From Burkholderia mayonis (GTDB taxonomy: Bacteria > Pseudomonadota > Gammaproteobacteria > Burkholderiales > Burkholderiaceae): 64,000 bases of DNA. How positions within the stretch are numbered: position 1 is the first letter of the stretch; every line of letters starts with the position of its first letter. The notes beneath the pieces were generated by a model, which did not search any database, was not told the DNA's origin, and was given only the letters and a program-made list of their open reading frames with translations. Made by a program: the position numbers and the translations under genes. This document shows positions 31,719-64,000 of the stretch, in pieces. Location of the stretch: the NCBI RefSeq assembly GCF_001523745.2, contig NZ_CP013386.1, forward strand, positions 2,232,001 through 2,296,000, given 5' to 3'.

Positions 31719-32423
31719 TCAACCGACGCTGAGCCAACGCGCGACCGTTTCCGCATCGAGCGCATCGGGCGCGCCGTCATGGACGATTCTTCCCCGCCCC
31801 ATCACCGCGACGCGCGACGCGAGCGCCGGCGCAAGCTGCATCCGCTGCTCGATCACGAGCAGCGCGACGCCTTGCGCCTTTGCGTCGGCAAGACACGCGC
31901 GAACCTGCTCGACCGCGAGCGGCGCGAGCCCTTCGGCCGGCTCGTCGACGATCAGCACGCGCGGCGCGCCGATCAACGCGCGCGCGAGCGCGAGCATCTG
32001 CTGCTCGCCGCCCGACAGCACACCCGCCTTCGTCCGCCAGCGCTCGGCGAGCATCGGATAGCGCTCGCGCGCGTCGGCGAGCGCCGCGCGCGCGGCCGAG
32101 CGACACGCGCCGCGCAGTCCGAGCCGCAAATTGTCCTCGACGCTCAGCAGCGCAAACACGTCGCGGATCTCGGCGACGTAGCCGACGCGATGCCGCGCGA
32201 TCGCGAACGGCGGCTCGCCCGCGACGTCGACGCCGTCGATGCGCACCGCACCGGCGACCCGCACCATGCCCATGATCGCCTTCGCGAGCGTCGAGCGGCC
32301 CGAGCCGTTACGGCCGATCAGCGCGACTGCTTCGCCCGCCGCGATCCGCAGGTCGACGCCGTCGAGCACCGGCAGCGCGCCGTATCCGGCGCGCACGCCG
32401 CGCAGTTCGAGCAGCGCGCTCAT
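31719..32423 (-). CDS. livF: Branched-chain-type ABC transporter ATPase LivF, altered Walker A
   Basis: A 234-residue ABC ATPase, by order and motifs the LivF of the adjacent LivHMG importer. The signature is VLSGGEQQMLALARAL, Walker B is VLIVDEPAEGLAPL and the switch region is VALLVIEQRMQ. The Walker A loop reads GRNGSGRSTLA: the invariant lysine is arginine (codon CGC). This lysine contacts the ATP phosphates, and substitution normally abolishes or strongly weakens hydrolysis. The protein may therefore work as the degenerate partner of LivG, or be damaged; the rest of the reading frame is intact. Its start overlaps the stop of the LivM-LivG gene (ATGA). The substrate of the transporter is unknown. 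Confidence 0.9.
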   Translation of the reverse strand: MSALLELRGVRAGYGALPVLDGVDLRIAAGEAVALIGRNGSGRSTLAKAIMGMVRVAGAVRIDGVDVAGEPPFAIARHRVGYVAEIRDVFALLSVEDNLRLGLRGACRSAARAALADARERYPMLAERWRTKAGVLSGGEQQMLALARALIGAPRVLIVDEPAEGLAPLAVEQVRACLADAKAQGVALLVIEQRMQLAPALASRVAVMGRGRIVHDGAPDALDAETVARWLSVG

Positions 32424-34570
32424 CGCTCGAACGCCTCGCCGAGATACGCGGCGCGCACCGCCGCGTTCGCGCGGATCGCCGCGGGCGTGCCGGTCGCGAC
32501 GAGTTCGCCGCGCACGAGGACCGACACGCGATCGGCGAAACCGAACACCGCGTCCATGTCGTGCTCGATCATCAGCACCGTCTTGCCCGCCGTCGCGCGC
32601 CGAATCAGTTCGATCGTCCGCCGCGCCTGGTCGCGGCTCATGCCCGCCGTCGGCTCGTCGAACAGAAACACCGACGCGCCGCTCGCGAGCGCGAGGCCGA
32701 CGTCGAGCGCGCGCTGCTCCGCATAGCTGAGGCTGCCCGCAAGCACGTCGCGGCGCGCGGCGAGGCCGATCGACGCGAGCGCGGCGTCGGCCGCGCGATC
32801 GATCGCGGCGGCGCCGGCGAGCCAGTTGCGCCAGCGGCGACGCTGCCCAGGCGCGTGAAGCGCCGCGCAACGCAGGTTGTCATGGACGGTCATCCGCGCG
32901 AACACGCTCGTCTGCTGGAAGCTGCGCGCGAGCCCGAGACGCGCGACCGCATGCGGGCCGCGCCGCCCGAGCTCGACGCCGTTCAGCGCGATGCGTCCGC
33001 GCGTCGGCGCGCGCGCGCCCGCGATCAGGTCGAAGAGCGTCGATTTGCCCGCGCCGTTCGGGCCGATCAGCGCGTGGCGCTCGCCGTGCCGGATCGTCAG
33101 ATCGACGCCGGCGAGCACCGGCGTCGCGCCGAACGATTTGCCGACGTTCGTCACGCGCAGCGCGGGCGGCGAGGTCGCGGCCCGCACGCTCGCGCGGTCG
33201 AGGCTTCCCGCGGTGGCGCCAGGCTCCATCTGCATAGCGAACGACGTGGCGTCGTCGGACACGCTCGCGCGATCACGCGCGCTCGCCGGGCCAACCACGT
33301 CGCTCGCGTCACGCACATCGGATGCGTCGGCGACATCGACATCCGCCTCATTCGATCGATGCACGCCGCCCCGCCGCCGCGCCGCCTGCGCGAGTCCCGC
33401 GCCGATTGCCGCGGCGGCCGCCGCGATGCCCCAACCGAACGGCGCGCCGGCATCGAACCGCCAAAGTCCGATGACCGCGCGCCGCCCTTCGTCCTGCGCG
33501 AACCGCAGCGCATACGCGAGCTCGACGACGAACACGATCGCGACGCCCAGCGCGATCGCCGCGCCCGCGCCGAGCAGTTCGCGCCGCCAGTCGACGCGCG
33601 CGCCGCCCTGCCGCCGCGCATCGCGCCGCGCGCGCCACCCGCCGCTCACGCCGCCCGGCGCCGCCAGCACGACGGCGACGAACAACACGCCCAGATACAG
33701 CAGCCACGCCCGCGATACGCTCGCGACGAACACGCTGAAGAACGTCAGCAGCGCCGCGCCGACGACGGGCCCGAAGAACCCCGTCGCGCCGCCGATCACG
33801 GTCGCGAACAGCACGGCGCCCGAGCGCAGCATCCCGACGCTCTCCGACGTTGCGACCTCGACATCGATCAGCGTGAGCGCACCCGATACGCCTGCAAAAA
33901 ACGCCGCCGCGACCGCCATCGCGTAGCGCACGCGACGCGGATCGGTGCCGAGCGTGGCGACGCGCGCCGGGTTGTCGCGGACCGCGTTCGCGAGCCGCGC
34001 GAACGGCGTGCGCGCGAGCGCGCGCATCGTGGCCGCCGCGCCGATGCACCAGAGCGCGATCAGCGCATACGCGTGCATCGGCCGCGCGAAATGCCACGCG
34101 CCGAGCGCGGGGCCGCTCGCCCGGTCGATCGACACGCCTCCCGCGCCGCCGAACCAGTCGGGCACGCTCCACGCGGCCGCGGCGACGAGTTCGCCAAGCC
34201 CGAGCGTGATCATCGCGAACGCGGTGCCCGCGCGCCGCGTCGCGATGAAGCCGAACAGCGCGCCGAAGCCCGCGCCCGCGACGCCGCCCGCGAGCGGCAC
34301 GAGCGGCAGCGGCAAGCCATAGCGGTTGAACACGTGCGCGGCGGCGAACGCGCCGAGCCCCGCGAACGCTGCGTGCCCGAACGACAGCAGCCCGGTCGTG
34401 CCGAGCAGCAGGTTGTACGACAGCGCGAGCACGATCAGCGCGGCCGTCTGCGCTAGATAGCCGAGCATCCAGCCGCGCGGCCACGCGAGCGCGGGCACGG
34501 CGAGGAGCACGATCAGCGCGAACCACGGCCACGCATGCGACAGGCGGCTTCGCACGGTCGCGCTAGACAT
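32420..34570 (-). CDS. livMG: Fused LivM permease - LivG ATPase
   Basis: A 716-residue fusion. Residues about 1-300 are a LivM-type permease (LAQTAALIVLALSYNLLLGTTG, LLSFGHAAFAGLGAF, ITLGLGELVAAAAW). Two extra hydrophobic segments (about 335-355, LLGAGAAIALGVAIVFVVEL, and about 375-395) follow. A Ser/Asp/Ala-rich linker (about 400-455, VADASDVRDASDVV) then joins a LivG-type ATPase (about 460-716) with Walker [13 protein letters not shown] (Lys at about 509), signature LSYAEQRALDV and Walker B FLFDEPTAGMS. LivM and LivG are usually separate proteins, though such fusions occur. It overlaps livH by 8 bases and livF by 4. Confidence 0.92.
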   Translation of the reverse strand: MSSATVRSRLSHAWPWFALIVLLAVPALAWPRGWMLGYLAQTAALIVLALSYNLLLGTTGLLSFGHAAFAGLGAFAAAHVFNRYGLPLPLVPLAGGVAGAGFGALFGFIATRRAGTAFAMITLGLGELVAAAAWSVPDWFGGAGGVSIDRASGPALGAWHFARPMHAYALIALWCIGAAATMRALARTPFARLANAVRDNPARVATLGTDPRRVRYAMAVAAAFFAGVSGALTLIDVEVATSESVGMLRSGAVLFATVIGGATGFFGPVVGAALLTFFSVFVASVSRAWLLYLGVLFVAVVLAAPGGVSGGWRARRDARRQGGARVDWRRELLGAGAAIALGVAIVFVVELAYALRFAQDEGRRAVIGLWRFDAGAPFGWGIAAAAAAIGAGLAQAARRRGGVHRSNEADVDVADASDVRDASDVVGPASARDRASVSDDATSFAMQMEPGATAGSLDRASVRAATSPPALRVTNVGKSFGATPVLAGVDLTIRHGERHALIGPNGAGKSTLFDLIAGARAPTRGRIALNGVELGRRGPHAVARLGLARSFQQTSVFARMTVHDNLRCAALHAPGQRRRWRNWLAGAAAIDRAADAALASIGLAARRDVLAGSLSYAEQRALDVGLALASGASVFLFDEPTAGMSRDQARRTIELIRRATAGKTVLMIEHDMDAVFGFADRVSVLVRGELVATGTPAAIRANAAVRAAYLGEAFER

Positions 34571-35498
34571 CGGCGCGCTCGCCGAACAGGCCGCGCGCGC
34601 GGCAAGCGAGCACCGCGACGAGCAGCAGATACGGAATCAGCGGCGCGAGCTGCGCGACCGTCAGCGCGCGCCACGCGTCGGGCAGCGCGATGCCGGCCCA
34701 CTCGGCGGCCGCGCCGAGCGACGCGCTGCTCGCCGTCGCGAACGTCTGCGCGCAGCCGACGACGAGCGATGCGGCGAGCGCGCCCGCGAGCGAGCCGAGC
34801 CCGCCGATCACGATCACCGCGAACACGACCGAGCCGAGCGTCTCCGCCATCGCAGGCTCGATCACCGTGAGCGGCGCGCCGATCACGCCAGCCAGCGCGG
34901 CGAGCGCAGTGCCCGCGGCGAACACGAGCGTCATCACGCGCGGCACGTCGTGGCCGAGCGCCTCGACGGCCGCGCGATGCGTGAGCGCCGCGCGCACGAC
35001 GAGCCCCGTTTGCGACACGCGCAGCCCCGCCCACGACACGCCGAGCATCGCGACCGACACGGCCATCATGAACACGCGATACCGCGAAAACGCGGCGCCG
35101 TAGACGGTGAACGCGGCGCCGTCGAGCGCGGCCGGCACGGGCGCGGCGAGCGGCGCGAGCCCCCACGCGAGCTTCACGCCTTCGGCGATCAGATACGCGA
35201 GCCCGAACGTCAGCAGCAATTCGTCGAGATGGCCGCTCGCCCTCACGCGCCGCAGCAGCGTGCGCTCGCACAGCGCGCCGAACGCGCCGACGACGAGCGG
35301 CGCGACGGCGAGCGCGAACCAGAAATTCGTGTGCGCGGCGATCGCCAAGCCGACGTAGGCGCCCAGCATGTAAAAGCTCGCATGCGCGAAATTCAGCACG
35401 CCCAGCATGCTGAAGATCAGCGTGAGCCCCGCGCACAGCATGAACAGCAACAGCCCGTAGCTCAGGCCGTTCAGCAGATTGATGACGATCGACTGCAC
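34563..35498 (-). CDS. livH: Branched-chain-type ABC transporter permease LivH
   Basis: A 311-residue inner-membrane permease. The opening IVINLLNGLSYGLLLFMLCAGLTLIFSMLGVLNFAHASFYMLGAYVG is the typical LivH N-terminus, and the conserved EAA-like loop region near the end of the domain is present (MAETLGSVVFAVIVIGGLGSLAGALAASLVVG). About eight TM helices are apparent. It starts 4 bases after the thioesterase stop and overlaps LivMG, so the five genes from 37.2 to 31.7 kb read as one operon. No gene for a periplasmic binding protein (LivJ/LivK) is in the window, so specificity cannot be assigned. Confidence 0.93.
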   Translation of the reverse strand: MQSIVINLLNGLSYGLLLFMLCAGLTLIFSMLGVLNFAHASFYMLGAYVGLAIAAHTNFWFALAVAPLVVGAFGALCERTLLRRVRASGHLDELLLTFGLAYLIAEGVKLAWGLAPLAAPVPAALDGAAFTVYGAAFSRYRVFMMAVSVAMLGVSWAGLRVSQTGLVVRAALTHRAAVEALGHDVPRVMTLVFAAGTALAALAGVIGAPLTVIEPAMAETLGSVVFAVIVIGGLGSLAGALAASLVVGCAQTFATASSASLGAAAEWAGIALPDAWRALTVAQLAPLIPYLLLVAVLACRARGLFGERADV

Positions 35499-35502
35499 CG
35501 CG

Positions 35503-35952
35503 TCAGGCCGCCTCCACGGCGAGCGACTCGAGCGCGGCGCGCAGCGGTTCGGGCAGCGGCACCGGACGGCGCGTCGCGCGATCGACGTACACGTGCACGA
35601 AATGGCCTTGCGCGGCGGCCGACGTCCCGCCGTCCGCGAAGAGGCCGATCCCGTAGCGCACGCTCGACGCGCCGAGCCGCGCGACCCGCAGCCCCGCTTC
35701 GACGCGCTGCGGAAACACGAGCGGCGCGAAGTAGTTGCACTGCGTCTCGACGACGAGGCCGATCGTCTCGCCGTGCTCGACGTCGAGCACGCCGCGGCGG
35801 ATCAGGTATTCGTTGACGACCGTGTCGAAGTAGCTGTAGTAGACGACGTTGTTGACGTGCCCATAGACATCGTTGTCCATCCAGCGCGTCGTGATCGGCA
35901 GGAAGTGGCGATAGGCGCTGCGCGGCAGCGGAACGGGTTTGGCGGCGGACAT
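35503..35952 (-). CDS. Hotdog-fold acyl-CoA thioesterase (4HBT/YbgC-like)
   Basis: A 149-residue thioesterase. The 4-hydroxybenzoyl-CoA-thioesterase signature is [24 protein letters not shown], where the Asp before xYGHVNN is the catalytic residue, followed by NEYLIRRG and [24 protein letters not shown]. It acts on a cytosolic acyl-CoA of unknown chain. The start ATG has no strong ribosome-binding site. It lies in one operon between an iron alcohol dehydrogenase and the LivHMG-F importer, which suggests uptake and breakdown of an organic acid, amino acid or aromatic compound through a CoA thioester and an alcohol or aldehyde step. Confidence 0.88.
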
Positions 35953-36062
35953 GTCGGCGCGAGGCGAAAAGGCGGTTGCTGGATGCTTGTTGGATGCTTT
36001 CTGGATGTGGGCTGCATGGTCGAATGCCGGCGATGCGTTGCGCGACGAACCGCGCCGCGCCG

Positions 36063-53670: not shown

Positions 53671-54057
53671 TCAGCGCTTCTGCAACTGCCACATGCCGGC
53701 CGCGGTCTTGCAATAGAGCGGCCGCAACGTCATCGACTGCCCCTTCGCCTCGATCTCGGTCTTGATCTCGCGGCACGTGCGGCCTGCCTGCTCGGTCGTG
53801 CTCGGCGTCAGCTTCGCCGAGAGCTTCGTGCCGCGACCCTGGTTCAGCCAGTCGACGGTCTCGCCGTCCTTCCCTTCGTCGCGGACCTTCTGCACGGCCT
53901 TCGTCAGCGATGCGGTGTCGGCCTTGCTGAAATAGCTGATCGGCGTGTCGTTCAGGAAGCCCAGGTTGTTCTGCGCGTGCGCGGCAAACGCGGCCGCCGC
54001 GCACACGGCGCCCGCCAGCACGCGCGACAGGATCGAGACACGGGCTCGCATCGTCAT
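53671..54057 (-). CDS. Exported RT0821/Lpp0805-like surface protein
   Basis: A 128-residue protein with a signal peptide (about 1-27, ending AAHA|QNN). The mature part has an alpha-helical start (SKADTASLTKAVQKVRDEG) and the C-terminal beta-domain pattern WLNQGRGTKLSAKLTPS, GRTCREIKTEIEA and YCKTAAGMWQL, which I recognise as the two-Cys 'surface antigen' domain seen in RT0821/Lpp0805 and 17-kDa-antigen proteins. The two Cys residues probably form a disulfide in the periplasm. The start has AAGGAG at good spacing. The assignment is by motif pattern only and is moderately secure. Confidence 0.75.
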   Translation of the reverse strand: MTMRARVSILSRVLAGAVCAAAAFAAHAQNNLGFLNDTPISYFSKADTASLTKAVQKVRDEGKDGETVDWLNQGRGTKLSAKLTPSTTEQAGRTCREIKTEIEAKGQSMTLRPLYCKTAAGMWQLQKR

Positions 54058-54289
54058 GTTGTTCTCCTTTGGAAACGATCGAATGTCCGGCGCGCGGCTT
54101 CGCTCGCGCGCCGGAAGAGCGCTCAAGGATAACTGCAACGAACCGTATTTGAAACCGATCCGGCAGCGCCGCGCCGCTTCGTCAGAGCTTTGCCGCCCGG
54201 ATTCGGCGGCGAATTCGCGGCAGGCGGCGGGCAATGCGCGGCAATCGGCCGCGCCGCTGCCCGCCTCCGTCGCGACGCCTTCTCGGCGT

Positions 54290-57348: not shown

Positions 57349-57755
57349 CGCGATGCGGCCGCGCCTGGCGCGCCCACAGCGTGGCGACGCGCTGACGGCC
57401 GAACGCCCACGTCGCCGTGAAGCTTGGCGAAGGGCATCGCGCGCGTTCGTTCGCCACCGAAGCGGTGCATGGCGTCGAGCGCCCAGTCGGCGCGGCTTTT
57501 AGCCGCATGGAATCGTTCGCCGATCGCGCGAAAAACAACGACGCGACACATTCGAGAACCTTTTCAAGTTGCGCTCGCCCCCGAGCCCGACTCGTCCATG
57601 CGCGCCGATACGGCTTGCGCGATTTCCGCCAACCATCGGCTTCGCCCGCCAACCCGAGATGCACAATTTCCGCCATCCGCTCCATAAATTCGGAGGGCCG
57701 TTTCAACACATATCAACTAATTTAAATCCATATTGTTATCGGATCACCATCGGCC
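57349..57755. other. Upstream region of the six-gene low-GC operon
   Basis: A 407-bp gap. The last 100 bases (from about 57650) are strikingly AT-rich (CAACTAATTTAAATCCATATTGTTATC), which suits the promoter of the downstream operon, but I cannot place a convincing -35/-10 pair. The earlier part is GC-rich with no recognisable gene. Confidence 0.45.
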
Positions 57756-59072
57756 ATGAAAAGAGAAGTCGACGAAACGCGAGTCGGCAACGTATTAGCC
57801 GGCTGGAATCATCTGGCGGGGATCGGCCCCCTTCAAATTTCAAATGCCCTAGGATCCCGAATACAAACGTGCTCGGGCGAATGGCGCGACGATTACATCA
57901 TGGGCTGGGGCTCGTGCTTTCTGGGCCATGACAGCCCCGTCATCCGGGAATCCGTCACTCGCGCCATGTCGCGCGGCTTCCTGCAGCAATATGAGACCGA
58001 GCGTCATCAACTTCTGAGCGAACGCTTTTGCGCCGCGGTTCCGTGCGCGGAAAAGTTGCGCCTCGTCAATTCCGGCCTGGAAGCCACCATGTATGCGACG
58101 CGGATCGCGCGCGCCGTCACCGGCAAGCGATTGATCTTGAAGTTTGAGGGGCACTTCCACGGTCTAAACGACACGCTCGCCTGGAACATCGACTCGTCCC
58201 CGCGAAGCGCAGCGATGCTGGAGAACGGCGAACTCGAACGCGTCGCGGGCACCGTCGGCATTCCCGGCGAACTCGGTCAATTGACCGTTCCGTTGCCGTG
58301 GAACGATCTGAATGCGGCTCGAAACGCGTTCGAACGTTACTCGGGCGACGTCGCGGGCGTCATCCTGGAGCCAATCGCGCTGAACATCGGCTGCATCAGG
58401 CCCGACGACGGTTTCCTCGAAGGCCTGCGCGCGCTTGCGACGAAGCACGAAGCGTTGCTGATCTTCGATGAGGTCCTGACGGGCTTTCGATCCAATCTCG
58501 GCGGCGCTCAGCAAGCGCTCGGCGTCACTCCCGACATCGCGACATACGGCAAGGCATTCGGCTGCGGCATGCCGATTGCGGGAATCGCGGGCAAGGCTGA
58601 ATATATGGACGTCATCGCACCGAGAGGCCCCGTGCAGATCAGCGGCACGAATACCGGACGCTATCTGGCGGTTTCCGCCGCACTGTCGGTTCTCGAACAT
58701 CTCGCGGACGGGACCATCTATCGATATGTCGCGGCTTTGGAAAACCGGCTCGAAAGCGGCCTGAGAGAAGTGTTCGACCGGCACGGCATCCCATGCCACA
58801 TCGACGGATATGGCGGCCGGATCGGCGTTCACATCGGCGCGTCGGAACGTCCGCGCACGATGAGAGACATCGAGCGCACCTACCCTGTAGCGTTTGCGCA
58901 CGAACTGTTCCGCCGATTGTCGACCGAGTACAGGCTATACGGATTTTTAATGCCTCTGAGCTATTGCCCGGAGCCGGTGACGCTTTCCGCCGCGCACACG
59001 CCGCAGATGATCGACGACGCGTGCGAACGACTGGATCGCGCACTCGACGAACTGGAATATCATGCCAACTGA
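57756..59072 (+). CDS. Class-III PLP aminotransferase (glutamate-1-semialdehyde aminomutase-like)
   Basis: A 438-residue class III (subgroup II) aminotransferase. Conserved pieces are YIMGWGSCFLGHDSP, LRLVNSGLEATMYATRIARAVTGK, LKFEGHFHGLND, the PLP-phosphate segment and LLIFDEVLTGFRSN. The PLP lysine is Lys266 in TYGKAFGCGMPIAG. Hits to GSA-aminomutase-like enzymes would be expected, but the context argues against haem biosynthesis. It is the first gene of a six-gene overlapping operon and probably transfers an amino group to a keto sugar, keto alcohol or related carbon skeleton. The start lacks a strong ribosome-binding site. Codon use is less GC-biased than elsewhere in the window. Confidence 0.88.
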   Translation: MKREVDETRVGNVLAGWNHLAGIGPLQISNALGSRIQTCSGEWRDDYIMGWGSCFLGHDSPVIRESVTRAMSRGFLQQYETERHQLLSERFCAAVPCAEKLRLVNSGLEATMYATRIARAVTGKRLILKFEGHFHGLNDTLAWNIDSSPRSAAMLENGELERVAGTVGIPGELGQLTVPLPWNDLNAARNAFERYSGDVAGVILEPIALNIGCIRPDDGFLEGLRALATKHEALLIFDEVLTGFRSNLGGAQQALGVTPDIATYGKAFGCGMPIAGIAGKAEYMDVIAPRGPVQISGTNTGRYLAVSAALSVLEHLADGTIYRYVAALENRLESGLREVFDRHGIPCHIDGYGGRIGVHIGASERPRTMRDIERTYPVAFAHELFRRLSTEYRLYGFLMPLSYCPEPVTLSAAHTPQMIDDACERLDRALDELEYHAN

Positions 59073-59571
59073 AAAAGAGAGCACCATTCTCGTTCGGCGC
59101 CTCGAAGCCGCCGACATCCAGGCGGTTCTCCGATTGGTTTCACAAATCGACTCGCCGGACGACCTGACTCGCTCCGCGAACCTCCAATTCATCCGCGAAT
59201 TGGAATGCCCCGGCGACGAAGAAGCGCGGTTCGTCGCCACTCATGAAGGCCGCATCGTGGGAACGATGGGCTGCGGCCCTGGGCCGATCCCTTCGAAGCA
59301 CGTACTGTGGGCGGATTGGTTGATCGTCGATCGCGACTATCGCCGGCGCGACATCGCGTCGCTGCTCTATGCGGAAATCGAGGCTTTCGCACGAAGTCTC
59401 GAAAAAAACCATATGTGCCTCGACATCGGCAACATCGATCGCGAACGCGCCGCCTACGTCTTTCATCTGCGCAACGGATTCCAAATAGTCGGACAGATTC
59501 CCGATTATTGGGGAAAATTCGAGCATCTCAACATCATGGCGAAATGTCTCATTTCTCAGAATCGACACTGA
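59062..59571 (+). CDS. GNAT-family N-acetyltransferase
   Basis: A 169-residue acetyltransferase that overlaps the aminotransferase end by 11 bases. It shows VRRLEAADIQAVLRLVSQI at the start, VATHEGRIVGTMG in strand 2-3, the acetyl-CoA segment LIVDRDYRRRDIASLLYAEIEAFA (a variant of Q/RxxGxG/A, with RRRDIA) and the closing NIDRERAAYVFHLRNGFQIVGQI. It would acetylate the amine made by the aminotransferase next to it, which is an inference from the pairing; small-molecule acyl donors other than acetyl-CoA are possible. It starts with ATG and has no separate promoter. Confidence 0.85.
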   Translation: MPTEKESTILVRRLEAADIQAVLRLVSQIDSPDDLTRSANLQFIRELECPGDEEARFVATHEGRIVGTMGCGPGPIPSKHVLWADWLIVDRDYRRRDIASLLYAEIEAFARSLEKNHMCLDIGNIDRERAAYVFHLRNGFQIVGQIPDYWGKFEHLNIMAKCLISQNRH

Positions 59572-59572
59572 T

Positions 59573-60055
59573 ATGACCGTTCTACAGAGAATCACCGAAT
59601 TGCAGGGCCTCGCCCGCAGCTATCGGGCGGATGGTCTCATCGTAGGGCTGTGTCACGGCTGTTTCGATATCGTTCATCTCGGGCACATCCACCATCTGCA
59701 GCAAGCCAGCGCGCTCGTGGATCGCTTGTTCGTATCGGTCACCGCCGACGAGCACGTCAATAAGGGACCCAATCGGCCGATATTTCCGGCCCGTGTTCGC
59801 GCGGAATTCATCGCGTCGATCCGATATTGCGATCACGCCATCGTCAATCATTCGCCGACCGCCGAATCCGTCATTTCGAAGCTCCGGCCCGACGTGTTCT
59901 TCAAGGGCGCCGACTACCGGTCGAGCTCCGATCCGAGAATAAACGTGGAGCGCGCGCTCGTCGAAAACAACGGCGGTCGCATGGTCCTGACCGACGACGC
60001 GATCATGGATTCGACGTCGCGAATTGCGCATATCATCCTGTCCGAAAGCGCGTGA
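59573..60055 (+). CDS. RfaE2/TagD-like nucleotidyltransferase
   Basis: A 160-residue cytidylyl/adenylyltransferase of the HIGH superfamily, 1 base after the GNAT stop. The nucleotide-binding motif is GLCHGCFDIVHLGHIHHLQ (HxGH at 35-38), and the second motif DSTSRIAH (about 144-151) matches the ISSTxxR region. The remaining pattern (RAEFIASIRYCDHAIV, LRPDVFFKGADY, VENNGGRMVL) follows the adenylyltransferase half of HldE/RfaE (ADP-heptose) closely. It should activate a phosphorylated alcohol or sugar as an NDP derivative. It is a free-standing domain, without the kinase half. Confidence 0.88.
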   Translation: MTVLQRITELQGLARSYRADGLIVGLCHGCFDIVHLGHIHHLQQASALVDRLFVSVTADEHVNKGPNRPIFPARVRAEFIASIRYCDHAIVNHSPTAESVISKLRPDVFFKGADYRSSSDPRINVERALVENNGGRMVLTDDAIMDSTSRIAHIILSESA

Positions 60056-60071
60056 CTCATCGGAGCGTGGA

Positions 60072-60737
60072 ATGCCGACTCTTCTATTGCTCGATCTCGA
60101 CGGAACGCTCGTCGATACCCCGCACTACGAAGCCTGGCGCAACGCCGCGCGCCGCATCGGGGCCGAAGAGCTCACCTACCCGGAATATGTCACGCACATA
60201 GCGGGACACCCGCGCGTGGACGGCGCCGCTCGCCTTCTCCTCCTCAAGAAAGGTCGCGCGCGCGCCAATCCGCGCGCTGCGGCCGACAGCGGCGCGCTCG
60301 CAAAAATCAAGCAGCGCGAATTTCTTCGGCTCGCCGCTCATACCCGGCTTTTCGACGACGCGCTGAGATTGCTCGAAAGAATCGAAGCGGCGAAGCAACG
60401 CGTTCTCTTCTACACGGCGTCGCGCAACGCGCCCGGCCTGTTCGACGCCGCGCTGCGCAGGGCGGGTAAACTGTTCGATCCGCACGCGATCGTGCAGCAG
60501 CGGCGGGATCAGACAAAAGAAGCGCTGTTCCTGCGCCTCATCGGCAAGCATGCGCCGGACTCGGTCACGCTCGTCGACGACGCGCCGCATGCCGTCGATG
60601 CGGCATGCGGCCTCGGCATCCGGGCCTGCCAGATCCGCCGTCACGCCTTCGAGCCGGCGGCGGCCGATCCGCGCGTCACCATTCTTCCGACGCTCGACGC
60701 CCTCGCCGTACCCATCAACGGCTTCGCAAGGACGTGA
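60072..60737 (+). CDS. Beta-phosphoglucomutase-like HAD hydrolase
   Basis: A 221-residue HAD-superfamily enzyme. Motif I is LLDLDGTLVDT (nucleophile Asp8, acid/base Asp10) and motif III/IV is VTLVDDAPHAVDAACGLGI. The cap-domain segment IAGHPRVDGAARLLLLKKG matches the (D)GxPRxDG segment of the beta-PGM-like HAD enzymes that act with GH65 phosphorylases. That fits beta-glucose-1-phosphate to glucose-6-phosphate, the usual GH65 partner step. A phosphatase for the nucleotidyltransferase pathway (like GmhB) is the alternative. GGAG lies 7 bases before the ATG; 16 bases separate it from the preceding gene. Confidence 0.85.
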   Translation: MPTLLLLDLDGTLVDTPHYEAWRNAARRIGAEELTYPEYVTHIAGHPRVDGAARLLLLKKGRARANPRAAADSGALAKIKQREFLRLAAHTRLFDDALRLLERIEAAKQRVLFYTASRNAPGLFDAALRRAGKLFDPHAIVQQRRDQTKEALFLRLIGKHAPDSVTLVDDAPHAVDAACGLGIRACQIRRHAFEPAAADPRVTILPTLDALAVPINGFART

Positions 60738-60738
60738 C

Positions 60739-61785
60739 ATGACCGAACCCACATTTGTGCTCGTGACGGGCGGCGCGGGATATATCGGATCGCGGCTGGT
60801 GCCGAGGTTGCTCGCCGCCGGCCACCGTGTCAGAGTGCTCGATGCGCAGTTTTTCTCGAACGGGCTCGAGCAGCTTGGCCGTCATCCCCGTCTCGACGCG
60901 ATCAAAGGGGACATCCGCGACAAGCGGACCGTCGAACGATCGCTGCGAGGCGTCACGACGGTGATCCATCTCGCCGCCGTGGCGAACGATCCGAGCTTCA
61001 ACTCCGATCCGGCGCTGAGCCGCTCCATCAACATCGACTGCCTGCCACATCTCATGGAGAGCGCGAAGCGCCAGGGCTGCCGACGCTTCATCTACGCGTC
61101 TTCGGCGAGCGTCTACGGGATCAGCGACGAGCCGGTCGTCGACGAACGCCAGCCGTGCGTGCCGATTACCGACTACAACCGGTACAAGGCCGAGGGCGAG
61201 AACATCCTCTTCGGCCTGAGCTCGCCGTCTTTCGAAACGGTCGCGGTCAGGGCGGCGACCGTATGCGGCTGGTCGCCCCGGCAACGCCTGGACCTCACGG
61301 TGAACATCCTGACGGCGAGCGCGCTCGCGCGCGGCGAAATCACGGTCTTCGGCGGACGCCAGTACCGGCCCAACGTCCACGTCGGCGATCTCAGCCGGCT
61401 CTATACGACACTCGTCCGACGCGATTCTCTCGGCGCAGCCTGCGGGCGCGCCGTCAATGTCGGATACGAAAACCACACGGTGGCCGACATCGCGGCGCAA
61501 GTCAAAGACGTCGTCGACCGCTACTTCTCGGCGAACGTTCCGATCACGACGACCGCATCCGACGACGTGCGCTCGTACCGGCTCGACTCAAGCCTAGCGC
61601 GGCGGGAACTTGGCTTCGAGTTCGCGTACACCATCCGGGACGCCGTACTGGAAATATGCGATCAATGGCAATCGGGCTGGTTCCAGGACAGCGCCGACGT
61701 CCTGAGCGATCCGCGTTACCACAATCTCATCAACATGCGCGTTTCCGACTGGTCATTCGCGTCGCCTGCGGGCGGCCCATGCTGA
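60739..61785 (+). CDS. NAD-dependent epimerase/dehydratase
   Basis: A 348-residue extended short-chain dehydrogenase acting on nucleotide sugars. The NAD motif is VTGGAGYIGSRLVPRLL (GxxGxxG at about 9-15). The catalytic Ser/Tyr-Lys set is IYASSASVYG and YNRYKAEGE. The C-terminal domain contains RAATVCGWSPRQRLD and YRPNVHVGDLSRL, the pattern of UDP-glucose 4-epimerase- or dTDP-glucose dehydratase-like members. Substrate is unknown; linked to the nucleotidyltransferase it may act on an NDP-sugar. The start is 1 base after the HAD stop, with AAGGA upstream; the stop overlaps the next start. Confidence 0.9.
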   Translation: MTEPTFVLVTGGAGYIGSRLVPRLLAAGHRVRVLDAQFFSNGLEQLGRHPRLDAIKGDIRDKRTVERSLRGVTTVIHLAAVANDPSFNSDPALSRSINIDCLPHLMESAKRQGCRRFIYASSASVYGISDEPVVDERQPCVPITDYNRYKAEGENILFGLSSPSFETVAVRAATVCGWSPRQRLDLTVNILTASALARGEITVFGGRQYRPNVHVGDLSRLYTTLVRRDSLGAACGRAVNVGYENHTVADIAAQVKDVVDRYFSANVPITTTASDDVRSYRLDSSLARRELGFEFAYTIRDAVLEICDQWQSGWFQDSADVLSDPRYHNLINMRVSDWSFASPAGGPC

Positions 61786-64000
61786 TCGTTTCCGACGGAA
61801 AACGACGCGAGATCGTGAGCGACCTCGATTCGGCGTCCTCCGCGTTCGTGTCGTGCGTGGCGACACTCGCCAATGCGTTCATCGGCGTGCGTCCGCACGT
61901 GCCCGGCGCCTCGGAGCGGAGCAAGCGGATCCAGTTGCTGGCGAGCGACGTCTACGCACCCGGCGTCGGCGTGTCGCGCGAGATTGCGTCGCTGCCGGCG
62001 CCGAGGATTCTTCACGTCTACGACGTCGACACCGGCGAGCCCGCGCGCCGTCCGGGCAGCGCGGCGGCGACCGTCGTGCTGTCGCTCGACCGCGCATCCG
62101 TGACGAGCGCCGAGCGCCTGCATGTCGGGGGAGCGACGTTCGAATTGACCGTGCGGCAGTTCGTCGACGCGCCGGACCGCGCGTCGGTCGCAACCGTCAT
62201 CGAACTGCGCCGGACGGACGGCGGCGGCGACGCCCCGCGGCGATTGCGCCTCGATTACGGCATTGACGCGCTCGCGGTCAACGAGTACCTCGGCACGTCC
62301 TCTTGGCTGACGGCTCGTCACTACAATCTCGAACGATGCCATTGCGAAAGCGATGGCTTCAGCATCATCGCCGCCGTCGCCGGTCAAAGGCTCCGTTACG
62401 ACGTGATCATCCGGCGCTCGCCGCCTTCCGCCAGCGCGTCCGCCACATGGGAGCATCCGGGGCCCGGCTGCACGATATCGACGACTTTCGATTTTTCCAA
62501 TGCCGATCGCCATCGAATAGACGCGCATTGGAAACTATGTTCCGGCTCCGCGTCCTGGTCAATGCCGCAAACCGCGCCGCCGTTCGATCCGGCGGTCGCC
62601 GAAGACGTGCACCGGACCCGCTGGGCCGGATTCTGGGAAGATCATGGCGTGACGATCGAAGCGCGCGGCGAACCGGTCGAACTCGGCATACGATATGCCG
62701 TTTTCCAGCTCTTGCAGCACGGAATCGCATCGCATCGCCATCCGCGCGGATTCGTGTCACCGGCGCGCGGCTTGACGAGCACTTACCACTCCGGCGCCAC
62801 ATTCTTCGACACCGAACTGCACAAGTGCGTGTTCTGGATCTGGAACGATCCGCGCGTCGCTCGCGCGCTCATCGACTATCGATACCATCGCCTGGAGCAA
62901 GCGATCGAGTTCGCCAAATCGACCAGATTCTCCGGCGCTCGCTTCCCGGAGGCTTCGAACGACCGTGGAACCGAAAACGGGCCGCATTACGTGCTGTCGT
63001 ATCCGGACGCGAAGACGACGCGGGAATGGAGCGTCGACGAAGTGCTGCACATCTCGGCTGACGTCTGCTACGCACTGCATTGCTACCGGGAAGTCACCGG
63101 CGACGACGCCTACATGACGACGCGCGGCTATCGCATCATCGCCGAATGCGCGAGATTTGCCGCATCCGCGTTCGAGTGGTCGGACTCGAAGCAGGCCTAT
63201 GTCGTCAATTCGGTGATGGGCCCGGACGAATATCATTACCACGTCGACAATAGCTTTTTCACGAATTATCTGCTTAGATGGTGCATCAGGCTCGCCATCT
63301 CGTCGGCGGGACACGAAGCCTTCCCCGACGTGCCGAAAGCCGAGTTGGACGATTGGCTCGCGATCAGCGATCGCGTCTATCTGCCGTGGATGAGCGTCGG
63401 AGGCGTTTCCATTCCGGAAGAATTCGAAGGGTACGCGAAACTTCCCGATACGGAGCTCAGAATCACGAAGAAACGCGGCCCGCAATTCGTCGACGAATCG
63501 GAGCGAGAATCGGCGGAGGCGTTGCGGAATTTCACGTCCAAGATCGTGAAGCAGGCCGATGTCATCCTCCTCATGTCCTTGTTCCCGGACGACTTCCCGG
63601 CCGACGTCAAGCGGGCGGCATTCGCGTTCTACGAACCTCGCACGGTTCACGAATCGTCGCTCAGCTACGGCCCGCACGCGATGGTCGCCGCGGACATCGG
63701 CAAGACGAGCGACTGCGCCGACTTCATCGCCCGAGCAAGCCGCTACAACCTGGACTTCACGCCGACCGCGGACTACGGCAACGGGCTGCACCTGTCCGCC
63801 TATGCCGGCGCGTGGCAGGGTCTCGTCCAAGGCCTGGCCGGCTTGCGCATCGAACGCGGCAGGCTTTGTTTTCGACCGCGGCTGTCGCCGCATTGGGATG
63901 CGTATCGGTTCGCCGTCCATTTTCGAGGGCGACGGCTGAAAGTCACGGTTCCCGCGAACGGAACGGTCCGCGTCGAGTGCGACGGGAACGCGCTTCCGAC
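61779..64000 (+). CDS. GH65 family glycoside phosphorylase (partial)
   Basis: At least 740 residues; the gene runs off the window end, so the C-terminus is missing. It belongs to GH65 (maltose, trehalose, kojibiose phosphorylases). Visible blocks are ATLANAFIGVRP at the N-terminus, ARGLTSTYHSGATFFDTE, MGPDEYHYHVDNSFFTNYLL carrying the acid Glu, and VHESSLSYGPHAMVAADIG, the phosphate-site region. Retention of HxSSLS favours phosphorylase over hydrolase. The product would be beta-glucose-1-phosphate, for the neighbouring beta-PGM-like enzyme. The N-terminal domain (about 1-270) is divergent. It overlaps the epimerase gene by 7 bases and continues the operon. Confidence 0.87.
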   Translation, partial: MLIVSDGKRREIVSDLDSASSAFVSCVATLANAFIGVRPHVPGASERSKRIQLLASDVYAPGVGVSREIASLPAPRILHVYDVDTGEPARRPGSAAATVVLSLDRASVTSAERLHVGGATFELTVRQFVDAPDRASVATVIELRRTDGGGDAPRRLRLDYGIDALAVNEYLGTSSWLTARHYNLERCHCESDGFSIIAAVAGQRLRYDVIIRRSPPSASASATWEHPGPGCTISTTFDFSNADRHRIDAHWKLCSGSASWSMPQTAPPFDPAVAEDVHRTRWAGFWEDHGVTIEARGEPVELGIRYAVFQLLQHGIASHRHPRGFVSPARGLTSTYHSGATFFDTELHKCVFWIWNDPRVARALIDYRYHRLEQAIEFAKSTRFSGARFPEASNDRGTENGPHYVLSYPDAKTTREWSVDEVLHISADVCYALHCYREVTGDDAYMTTRGYRIIAECARFAASAFEWSDSKQAYVVNSVMGPDEYHYHVDNSFFTNYLLRWCIRLAISSAGHEAFPDVPKAELDDWLAISDRVYLPWMSVGGVSIPEEFEGYAKLPDTELRITKKRGPQFVDESERESAEALRNFTSKIVKQADVILLMSLFPDDFPADVKRAAFAFYEPRTVHESSLSYGPHAMVAADIGKTSDCADFIARASRYNLDFTPTADYGNGLHLSAYAGAWQGLVQGLAGLRIERGRLCFRPRLSPHWDAYRFAVHFRGRRLKVTVPANGTVRVECDGNALP

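Follow-up and report, generated by a model that had tools for sequence, protein, structure and literature searches.

A mobile eight-gene operon of Burkholderia mayonis and its candidate role in making an N-acylated amino-sugar glycoside

A 64,000-nucleotide stretch of Burkholderia mayonis DNA (positions 2232001-2296000 of contig 1 in a 6.59-Mb, two-contig genome; hereafter the window) ends in a tight run of sugar-modifying genes, and the question raised by this locus is what such a set of enzymes could make together. The earlier note on this DNA had described a low-GC operon of six genes. We found all six open reading frames (ORFs) on the plus strand, from 57756 to 64049 and spaced as described, but the unit comprises eight genes, not six, and runs about 2.4 kb beyond the window. 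There, as had been anticipated, further genes follow: an export-type transporter of the major facilitator superfamily (MFS) and then a DegT aminotransferase, the second aminotransferase of the operon. Gene families were assigned by Pfam, and NCBIfam equivalog scores were compared with their cut-offs; Pfam bore out the families first named, and their catalytic motifs are intact. The cluster, about 8.6 kb in size, consists of the following genes:

57756..59072, plus strand, class-III (HemL-like) pyridoxal phosphate (PLP) aminotransferase, 438 amino acids (aa), Pfam PF00202
59062..59571, plus strand, GNAT N-acyltransferase, 169 aa, PF00583/PF13508
59573..60055, plus strand, RfaE2/HldC-like nucleotidyltransferase, 160 aa, PF01467
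60072..60737, plus strand, HAD enzyme resembling beta-phosphoglucomutase (beta-PGM), 221 aa, PF00702
60739..61785, plus strand, extended short-chain dehydrogenase/reductase (SDR), GalE-like, 348 aa, PF01370
61779..64049, plus strand, GH65 phosphorylase-like enzyme, 756 aa, crossing the window end at 64000
64046-65275 (L003:10046-11275), plus strand, MFS transporter, 409 aa, beyond the window
65272-66360 (L003:11272-12360), plus strand, DegT sugar aminotransferase, 362 aa, beyond the window

Consecutive genes lie, in order, -11, +1, +16, +1, -7, -4 and -4 bases apart. The GC content of the cluster is lower than that of its neighbours, as first reported (0.634, whereas 91 equally long windows across 1-54000 span 0.663-0.726). 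The AT-rich upstream DNA of the same description is found, by eye, in the final segment leading up to the start codon, but not over 57349-57755 as a whole (0.622 GC). Scans for such signals gave 2 promoter-like sites (1.8 in shuffles) and 4 terminator-like sites (7.5 in shuffles), with none on the plus strand.

Relatives were collected by searching plasmid records for distant DNA matches, by a genome scan and by further genome searches. This gave 15 records representing 14 distinct loci, since two Pseudomonas aeruginosa records (L005 and L006) seem to represent the same element. The hosts include Burkholderia, Paraburkholderia, Trinickia, Pseudomonas, a P. aeruginosa plasmid, Xenorhabdus, Klebsiella and Photorhabdus. 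All eight genes, in the same order and on one strand, were detectable in 13 of the 14 distinct loci (14 of 15 records), and the remaining one, L007 of Photorhabdus bodei, is cut off within the SDR gene by the start of its contig. With this order repeated in 13 of 14 distinct loci, the genes do not lie together by chance, and the doubt whether the six genes first noted are conserved together is settled in favour of the cluster. Three P. aeruginosa plasmid records carry most of the six window genes, and the two that were examined hold all eight with the order unchanged; protein identities between B. mayonis and P. aeruginosa are, in gene order, 74, 63, 64, 50, 73, 58, 68 and 69%. Counting only copies in a single frame and of 85% length or more gives, again in gene order, 10, 13, 12, 13, 13, 14, 14 and 14 of 14. 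In three loci the class-III gene is broken across frames, at different places (L008:5976-7290, L012:26-1149 and L014:5961-7279); in L012 the nucleotidyltransferase gene is also frame-split and the contig starts inside the class-III gene.

For comparison we used 72 distant GH65 loci from a scan of genome contigs with two peptide patterns, a set that is not a census and whose counts at residues 480-486 are biased, as the pattern MGPDEYH sits inside the GH65 catalytic motif. None of the other seven genes was detected in the DNA examined around these 72 loci (tblastn, E <= 1e-10), some of which are on contigs of only 3-8 kb, which weakens this control of synteny. The conserved core of eight genes is undescribed in the literature searched (open-licence papers only), where, in line with the first impression of this DNA, we found no account of such a cluster.

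What the eight genes make can be approached from their families and residues, on which every step of the following scheme is based. The beta-PGM-like HAD enzyme, acting as a sugar-phosphate mutase or phosphatase, would provide a beta-hexose-1-phosphate. From such a beta-sugar-1-phosphate the HldC/RfaE2-like enzyme, whose family handles beta-sugar-1-phosphates such as heptose beta-1-phosphate, would form a nucleoside diphosphate (NDP)-beta-sugar. The GalE-like SDR would then oxidise or epimerise the activated sugar at C4, DegT would aminate the ketone, and the GNAT enzyme would acylate one amino group. The class-III aminotransferase could convert the terminal aldehyde of an amino-hexose to a 1-amino-alditol (or another aldehyde to an amine); GH65 would couple a donor carrying a beta-phosphate to an acceptor by reverse phosphorolysis, giving an alpha-glycoside, and the MFS protein would export the product. 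The HAD enzyme, the nucleotidyltransferase and GH65 are members of, or similar to, families acting on beta-anomeric sugar phosphates such as beta-Glc-1-P, which suggests a beta-configured route. We regard an N-acylated amino-sugar glycoside as the probable broad class of product, in keeping with the accessory pathway to an acylamino sugar or alcohol glycoside proposed at the outset; the fuller proposal, that the operon would both make and export a small glycoside of this kind without a classical glycosyltransferase, we consider evenly poised.

The GH65 enzyme carries much of this argument. Its residue roles were taken from PMC8626586. E484, K591, Q592, S626, S627 and H671 are kept in 14/14 loci, and among them are the general acid (E484), the phosphate-binding pair S626-S627 and H671, the residues of an inverting GH65 phosphorylase; the same paper states that inverting phosphorylases run in both directions. 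The presumed equivalent of the phosphate-binding Lys is R330 in all 14 loci (Arg in 51 and Lys in 21 of the 72 distant loci). The presumed Trp of subsite -1 is Phe in 14/14, and invariant also in a 16-row alignment, whereas it is Trp in 72/72 distant loci. The presumed acceptor Trp of subsite +1 is replaced by Glu (Trp in 62/72 of the others), a Tyr by His (Tyr in 72/72) and a Gln by Glu (Gln in 68/72). Because the donor Trp is Phe and the acceptor Trp is Glu while the phosphorylase residues are kept, the cluster GH65 probably handles modified sugars. The reading as a GH65 glucoside enzyme that takes plain glucose at subsite -1 was considered and rejected: of the Trp-Asp-Lys-Gln set, which according to PMC8626586 CsKP and LbMP share with the GH65 hydrolases examined there, the Trp is lost, with Asp, Lys and Gln kept. 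At the four specificity positions that were mapped (392/394/402/416, of a set that also includes 64 and 585) the cluster enzyme reads A-N-P-W.

The class-III enzyme scores 308-313 bits with the HemL models (cut-offs 527/398). We rejected its identity as HemL (TIGR00713, 308.2 bits, below the cut-off of 527.3), as the arginine of the SPVR motif, which in HemL binds the carboxylate, is also missing in all five rows inspected out of 10; the host has a separate HemL. Its PLP-lysine motif GKAF is kept in 10/10 single-frame copies, and its relatives include a class-III C-6' aminotransferase of solved structure (7lld); the GNAT protein gave weak, sub-threshold matches to AAC(6'). The nucleotidyltransferase has a predicted structure of pLDDT 91.0, with HldC (5xf2) as the best Foldseek match (E 1.1e-11, TM 0.74, 30% identity). 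It shares the fold and the HxGH motif with the heptose-1-phosphate nucleotidyltransferases RfaE2 and the C-terminal part of HldE, an identity that we nevertheless rejected (TIGR02199, 100.7 bits, cut-off 181.5). The cap and core motifs of the HAD enzyme resemble those of beta-PGM, and DLDGT is kept in 13/13, but beta-PGM itself was rejected (TIGR01990 24.3 and TIGR02009 42 bits vs cut-offs 189.4 and 153.35). For the SDR the best NCBIfam model was galE (105.6 bits, cut-off 262.3). The active site of NDP-hexose 4,6-dehydratases has an Asp-Glu pair before VYG; the cluster SDR has the motif SSASVYG in 13/13, so it is without this pair, and with TIGR01181 at 75.7 bits (cut-off 365.1) a 4,6-dehydratase was rejected as well. 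The MFS transporter is nearest to efflux families of NCBIfam, below cut-off.

Can a known compound be proposed as the product? Sorbistin is a 1,4-diamino-1,4-dideoxy-glucitol with an alpha-linked 4-acylamino-4-deoxyglucose, and P-2563 and LL-AM31 are related amino-alditol aminoglycosides. We name sorbistin or a close analogue as a possible, still tentative product because two aminotransferases, an acyltransferase, an enzyme forming alpha bonds and an exporter would explain it with no gene left over. PMC12175458 gives the producer of sorbistin A2 as Pseudomonas sorbicinii and its formula as C16H33N3O9, which by our own arithmetic equals a diaminodideoxyhexitol, an aminodeoxyhexosyl unit and a butyryl group. 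A description of sorbistin biosynthesis genes was not found in the portions of the open-licence literature searched. With more hesitation we suggest the whole picture, in which this would be the missing sorbistin-family cluster, running wholly through beta-sugar phosphates, with a GH65 enzyme re-tooled to join an amino sugar to an amino-alditol, and spread by mobile elements among proteobacteria. If this is true, an orphan aminoglycoside-type natural product would gain its gene cluster, and a glycoside phosphorylase would assemble a natural product rather than break down sugar. The pathway to this aminoglycoside would be free of glycosyltransferases, its carriers would include pathogens and insect symbionts, and a conjugative P. 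aeruginosa plasmid, as well as the genera Xenorhabdus and Photorhabdus, would harbour a small mobile natural-product operon.

Several points weigh against this proposal. For sorbistin itself, the main counter-evidence is the regiochemistry of DegT. Its best PDB match, 7b0d (292 bits), bears the name glutamine--scyllo-inositol transaminase and was followed by 2oga (259), QdtB (233) and WbpE (207), with ArnB (159-169) and perosamine synthase (158 bits) lower. We take 2oga to be DesV and 2oga, QdtB and WbpE to be sugar aminotransferases of the C3 type, ArnB and perosamine synthase of the C4 type, so that the PDB ranks C3 enzymes above C4 ones and, as far as such matches can tell, does not favour a 4-amino sugar. 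In the NCBIfam ranking a C4 model (PseC) came first, and we recognised no C3 model among the DegT hits. The weakest step of the scheme is the passage from an NDP-amino-sugar to the 1-phosphate donor of GH65, which it leaves unexplained. There is also no dedicated resistance gene among the eight, the class-III gene may be decaying in L008, L012 and L014, unless the frame splits are assembly errors, and an FAD (flavin adenine dinucleotide) oxidoreductase gene, present next to the cluster in some hosts, may be a ninth pathway gene whose step the scheme does not use.

The order of the DegT matches lends itself to another chemistry within the same product class, namely a 3-amino-3-deoxy sugar glycoside (a disaccharide of the trehalosamine or kanosamine type), with DegT acting at C3 and the HemL-like enzyme serving elsewhere. 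After the top match, DegT is indeed nearest in the PDB to C3 aminotransferases, and PMC8626586 counts trehalose phosphorylases among the GH65 members. However, the SDR is GalE-like, which means chemistry at C4, and Pfam identified neither a Gfo/Idh-type C3 dehydrogenase nor a 3,4-ketoisomerase among the eight, and we hold this alternative to be unlikely, though a serious one. Considerably less probable is accessory decoration of the cell surface, in which an NDP-activated acylamino unit would be attached to lipopolysaccharide (LPS), capsule or another glycan. HldC, which the nucleotidyltransferase resembles, is an LPS-core enzyme, and DegT, GNAT and SDR genes are generally frequent in surface-sugar loci. 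Nonetheless, no glycosyltransferase, flippase (Wzx) or polymerase (Wzy) was found among the eight products by Pfam and NCBIfam, nor an ABC exporter or a ligase; the MFS protein comes closest to efflux families, and we recognised no shared surface-glycan neighbourhood around the loci (flanking ORFs judged by their first 60 residues), so the decorated polysaccharide that had been offered as a second possible product was not borne out. Quite improbable, lastly, is a catabolic module for uptake and phosphorolysis of an unusual amino-disaccharide: GH65 with beta-PGM is the classic degradative pair, such a HAD enzyme is present here, and inverting phosphorylases are reversible, but the two aminotransferases, together with the acyltransferase and the nucleotidyltransferase, have the look of biosynthesis, and none of the eight is an importer of a known uptake type, a regulator or a kinase. 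The plain disaccharide-degrading module once suggested is not supported, given the changed sugar-binding residues of GH65 and the efflux-like transporter.

Whatever its product, the eight-gene operon is horizontally mobile and has passed between bacteria that are only distant relatives. Its distribution is sporadic: the cluster was present in 1 of 65 Burkholderia genomes (that of the B. mayonis window itself), 4 of 398 Pseudomonas genomes and 2 of 246 genomes of the family of X. szentirmaii, each count including the centre genome. One P. aeruginosa copy resides on an 847-kb plasmid typed as conjugative, amid genes of integrative elements, and the other on a 22-kb circular record typed as non-mobilizable. 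A stretch of 177 bases labelled OXA-573 by a resistance predictor (L005:17238-17414 and L006:30222-30398) has a short hypothetical protein as its annotation and looks too short for a beta-lactamase. In B. mayonis the cluster lies within an accessory block:

54099-66754 (passing the window end), no strand assigned, 12.6-kb accessory block, absent from three other Burkholderia

In these three (L111, L112 and L113) homology ends near 54098 (in L113 already at 53752) and picks up again at 66755, leaving an empty site. Besides the cluster, the block contains genes for a GH3 enzyme and an M15 peptidase. It is flanked on one side by a conserved gene whose end lies near 54098 and on the other by a cytochrome c peroxidase gene; no direct repeats of 11 bases or more were found between its ends. 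Compared with its flanks, the cluster has a lower or roughly equal GC content in high-GC hosts, and a higher one in X. szentirmaii and Klebsiella.

Gene surroundings differ among the loci, though not wholly, as an FAD oxidoreductase is shared by 8 of 14. In six of them the gene comes right after the cluster, on the cluster's own strand; in L009 and L014 it is broken into pieces or reduced to a remnant. The six genes, of the L-2-hydroxyglutarate oxidase kind, are:

L095:12994-14106, same strand as the cluster
L096:12763-13875, same strand
L097:3579-4679, same strand
L010:14814-16040, same strand
L094:13042-14280, same strand
L007:5079-6317, same strand

They come in two forms, about 28% alike. 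The first is an L-2-hydroxyglutarate oxidase above the cut-off of 299 (586 bits in X. szentirmaii and 573 bits in L094, with the L007 protein 97% like that of L094), and the second a shorter relative below it (L095, 196 bits). In L095 and L096 the gene begins about 12 bases past DegT, so that in these two it may count as a ninth gene. Neither form has a homologue in the DNA examined around L003, L004, L005, L006, L008, L011, L012 and L013.

Outside the proteobacteria, we noticed in Actinoplanes sp. NPDC049265 a GH65 protein (P0068, 33% identical to that of the window) and a nucleotidyltransferase (P0184, 49%) on contigs of equal size (121563), a hint that the cluster may have a counterpart in actinobacteria. 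A second such pair is P0058 (GH65) and P0178 (nucleotidyltransferase), with contigs of size 11879. Equal contig size, used as a proxy for co-location, links 21 of 64 nucleotidyltransferase rows to GH65 rows (20 of 37 on contigs of at least 9 kb); the proxy took 64 of 93 nucleotidyltransferase rows and 69 of the 70 GH65 rows P0002-P0071 (120 listed). None of 343 Streptomyces genomes had a match at E <= 1e-120, a count that is uninformative, with at most three candidates scored per listed genome and no positive control. Elsewhere in the window, the highest values of the profile, GC up to 0.747 and AT skew up to 0.285, fall at 32001-36000.

How does the cluster compare with known systems? The class-III enzyme is 36% identical to the HemL region of its own host and has the PLP-lysine motif in common with it, but stays below the HemL cut-offs and lacks the SPVR arginine in the rows given above. 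As in the ADP-heptose pathway (HldC or the C-terminal part of HldE, with HldD), a nucleotidyltransferase of the HldC fold and an SDR stand in one operon; here, however, the former falls below the RfaE2 equivalog cut-off, the SDR is nearer to GalE than to HldD, and a heptose isomerase and kinase are not among the eight genes. With the GH65 phosphorylases of maltose, kojibiose, nigerose, trehalose and glucosylglycerol the cluster enzyme shares the fold, the general acid and the phosphate-binding residues, and it differs from them at the presumed -1 and +1 subsites. Its A-N-P-W matches none of TRIGPP, FAITQA, EEAPWS, DQGQDE and KV[MF]NES, the signatures compared from PMC8537180, which do not cover all of its 22 subgroups. 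Sorbistin combines three amino groups, one N-acyl group, an alpha-glycoside and a Pseudomonas producer, and each of these features could be assigned to a gene of the cluster.

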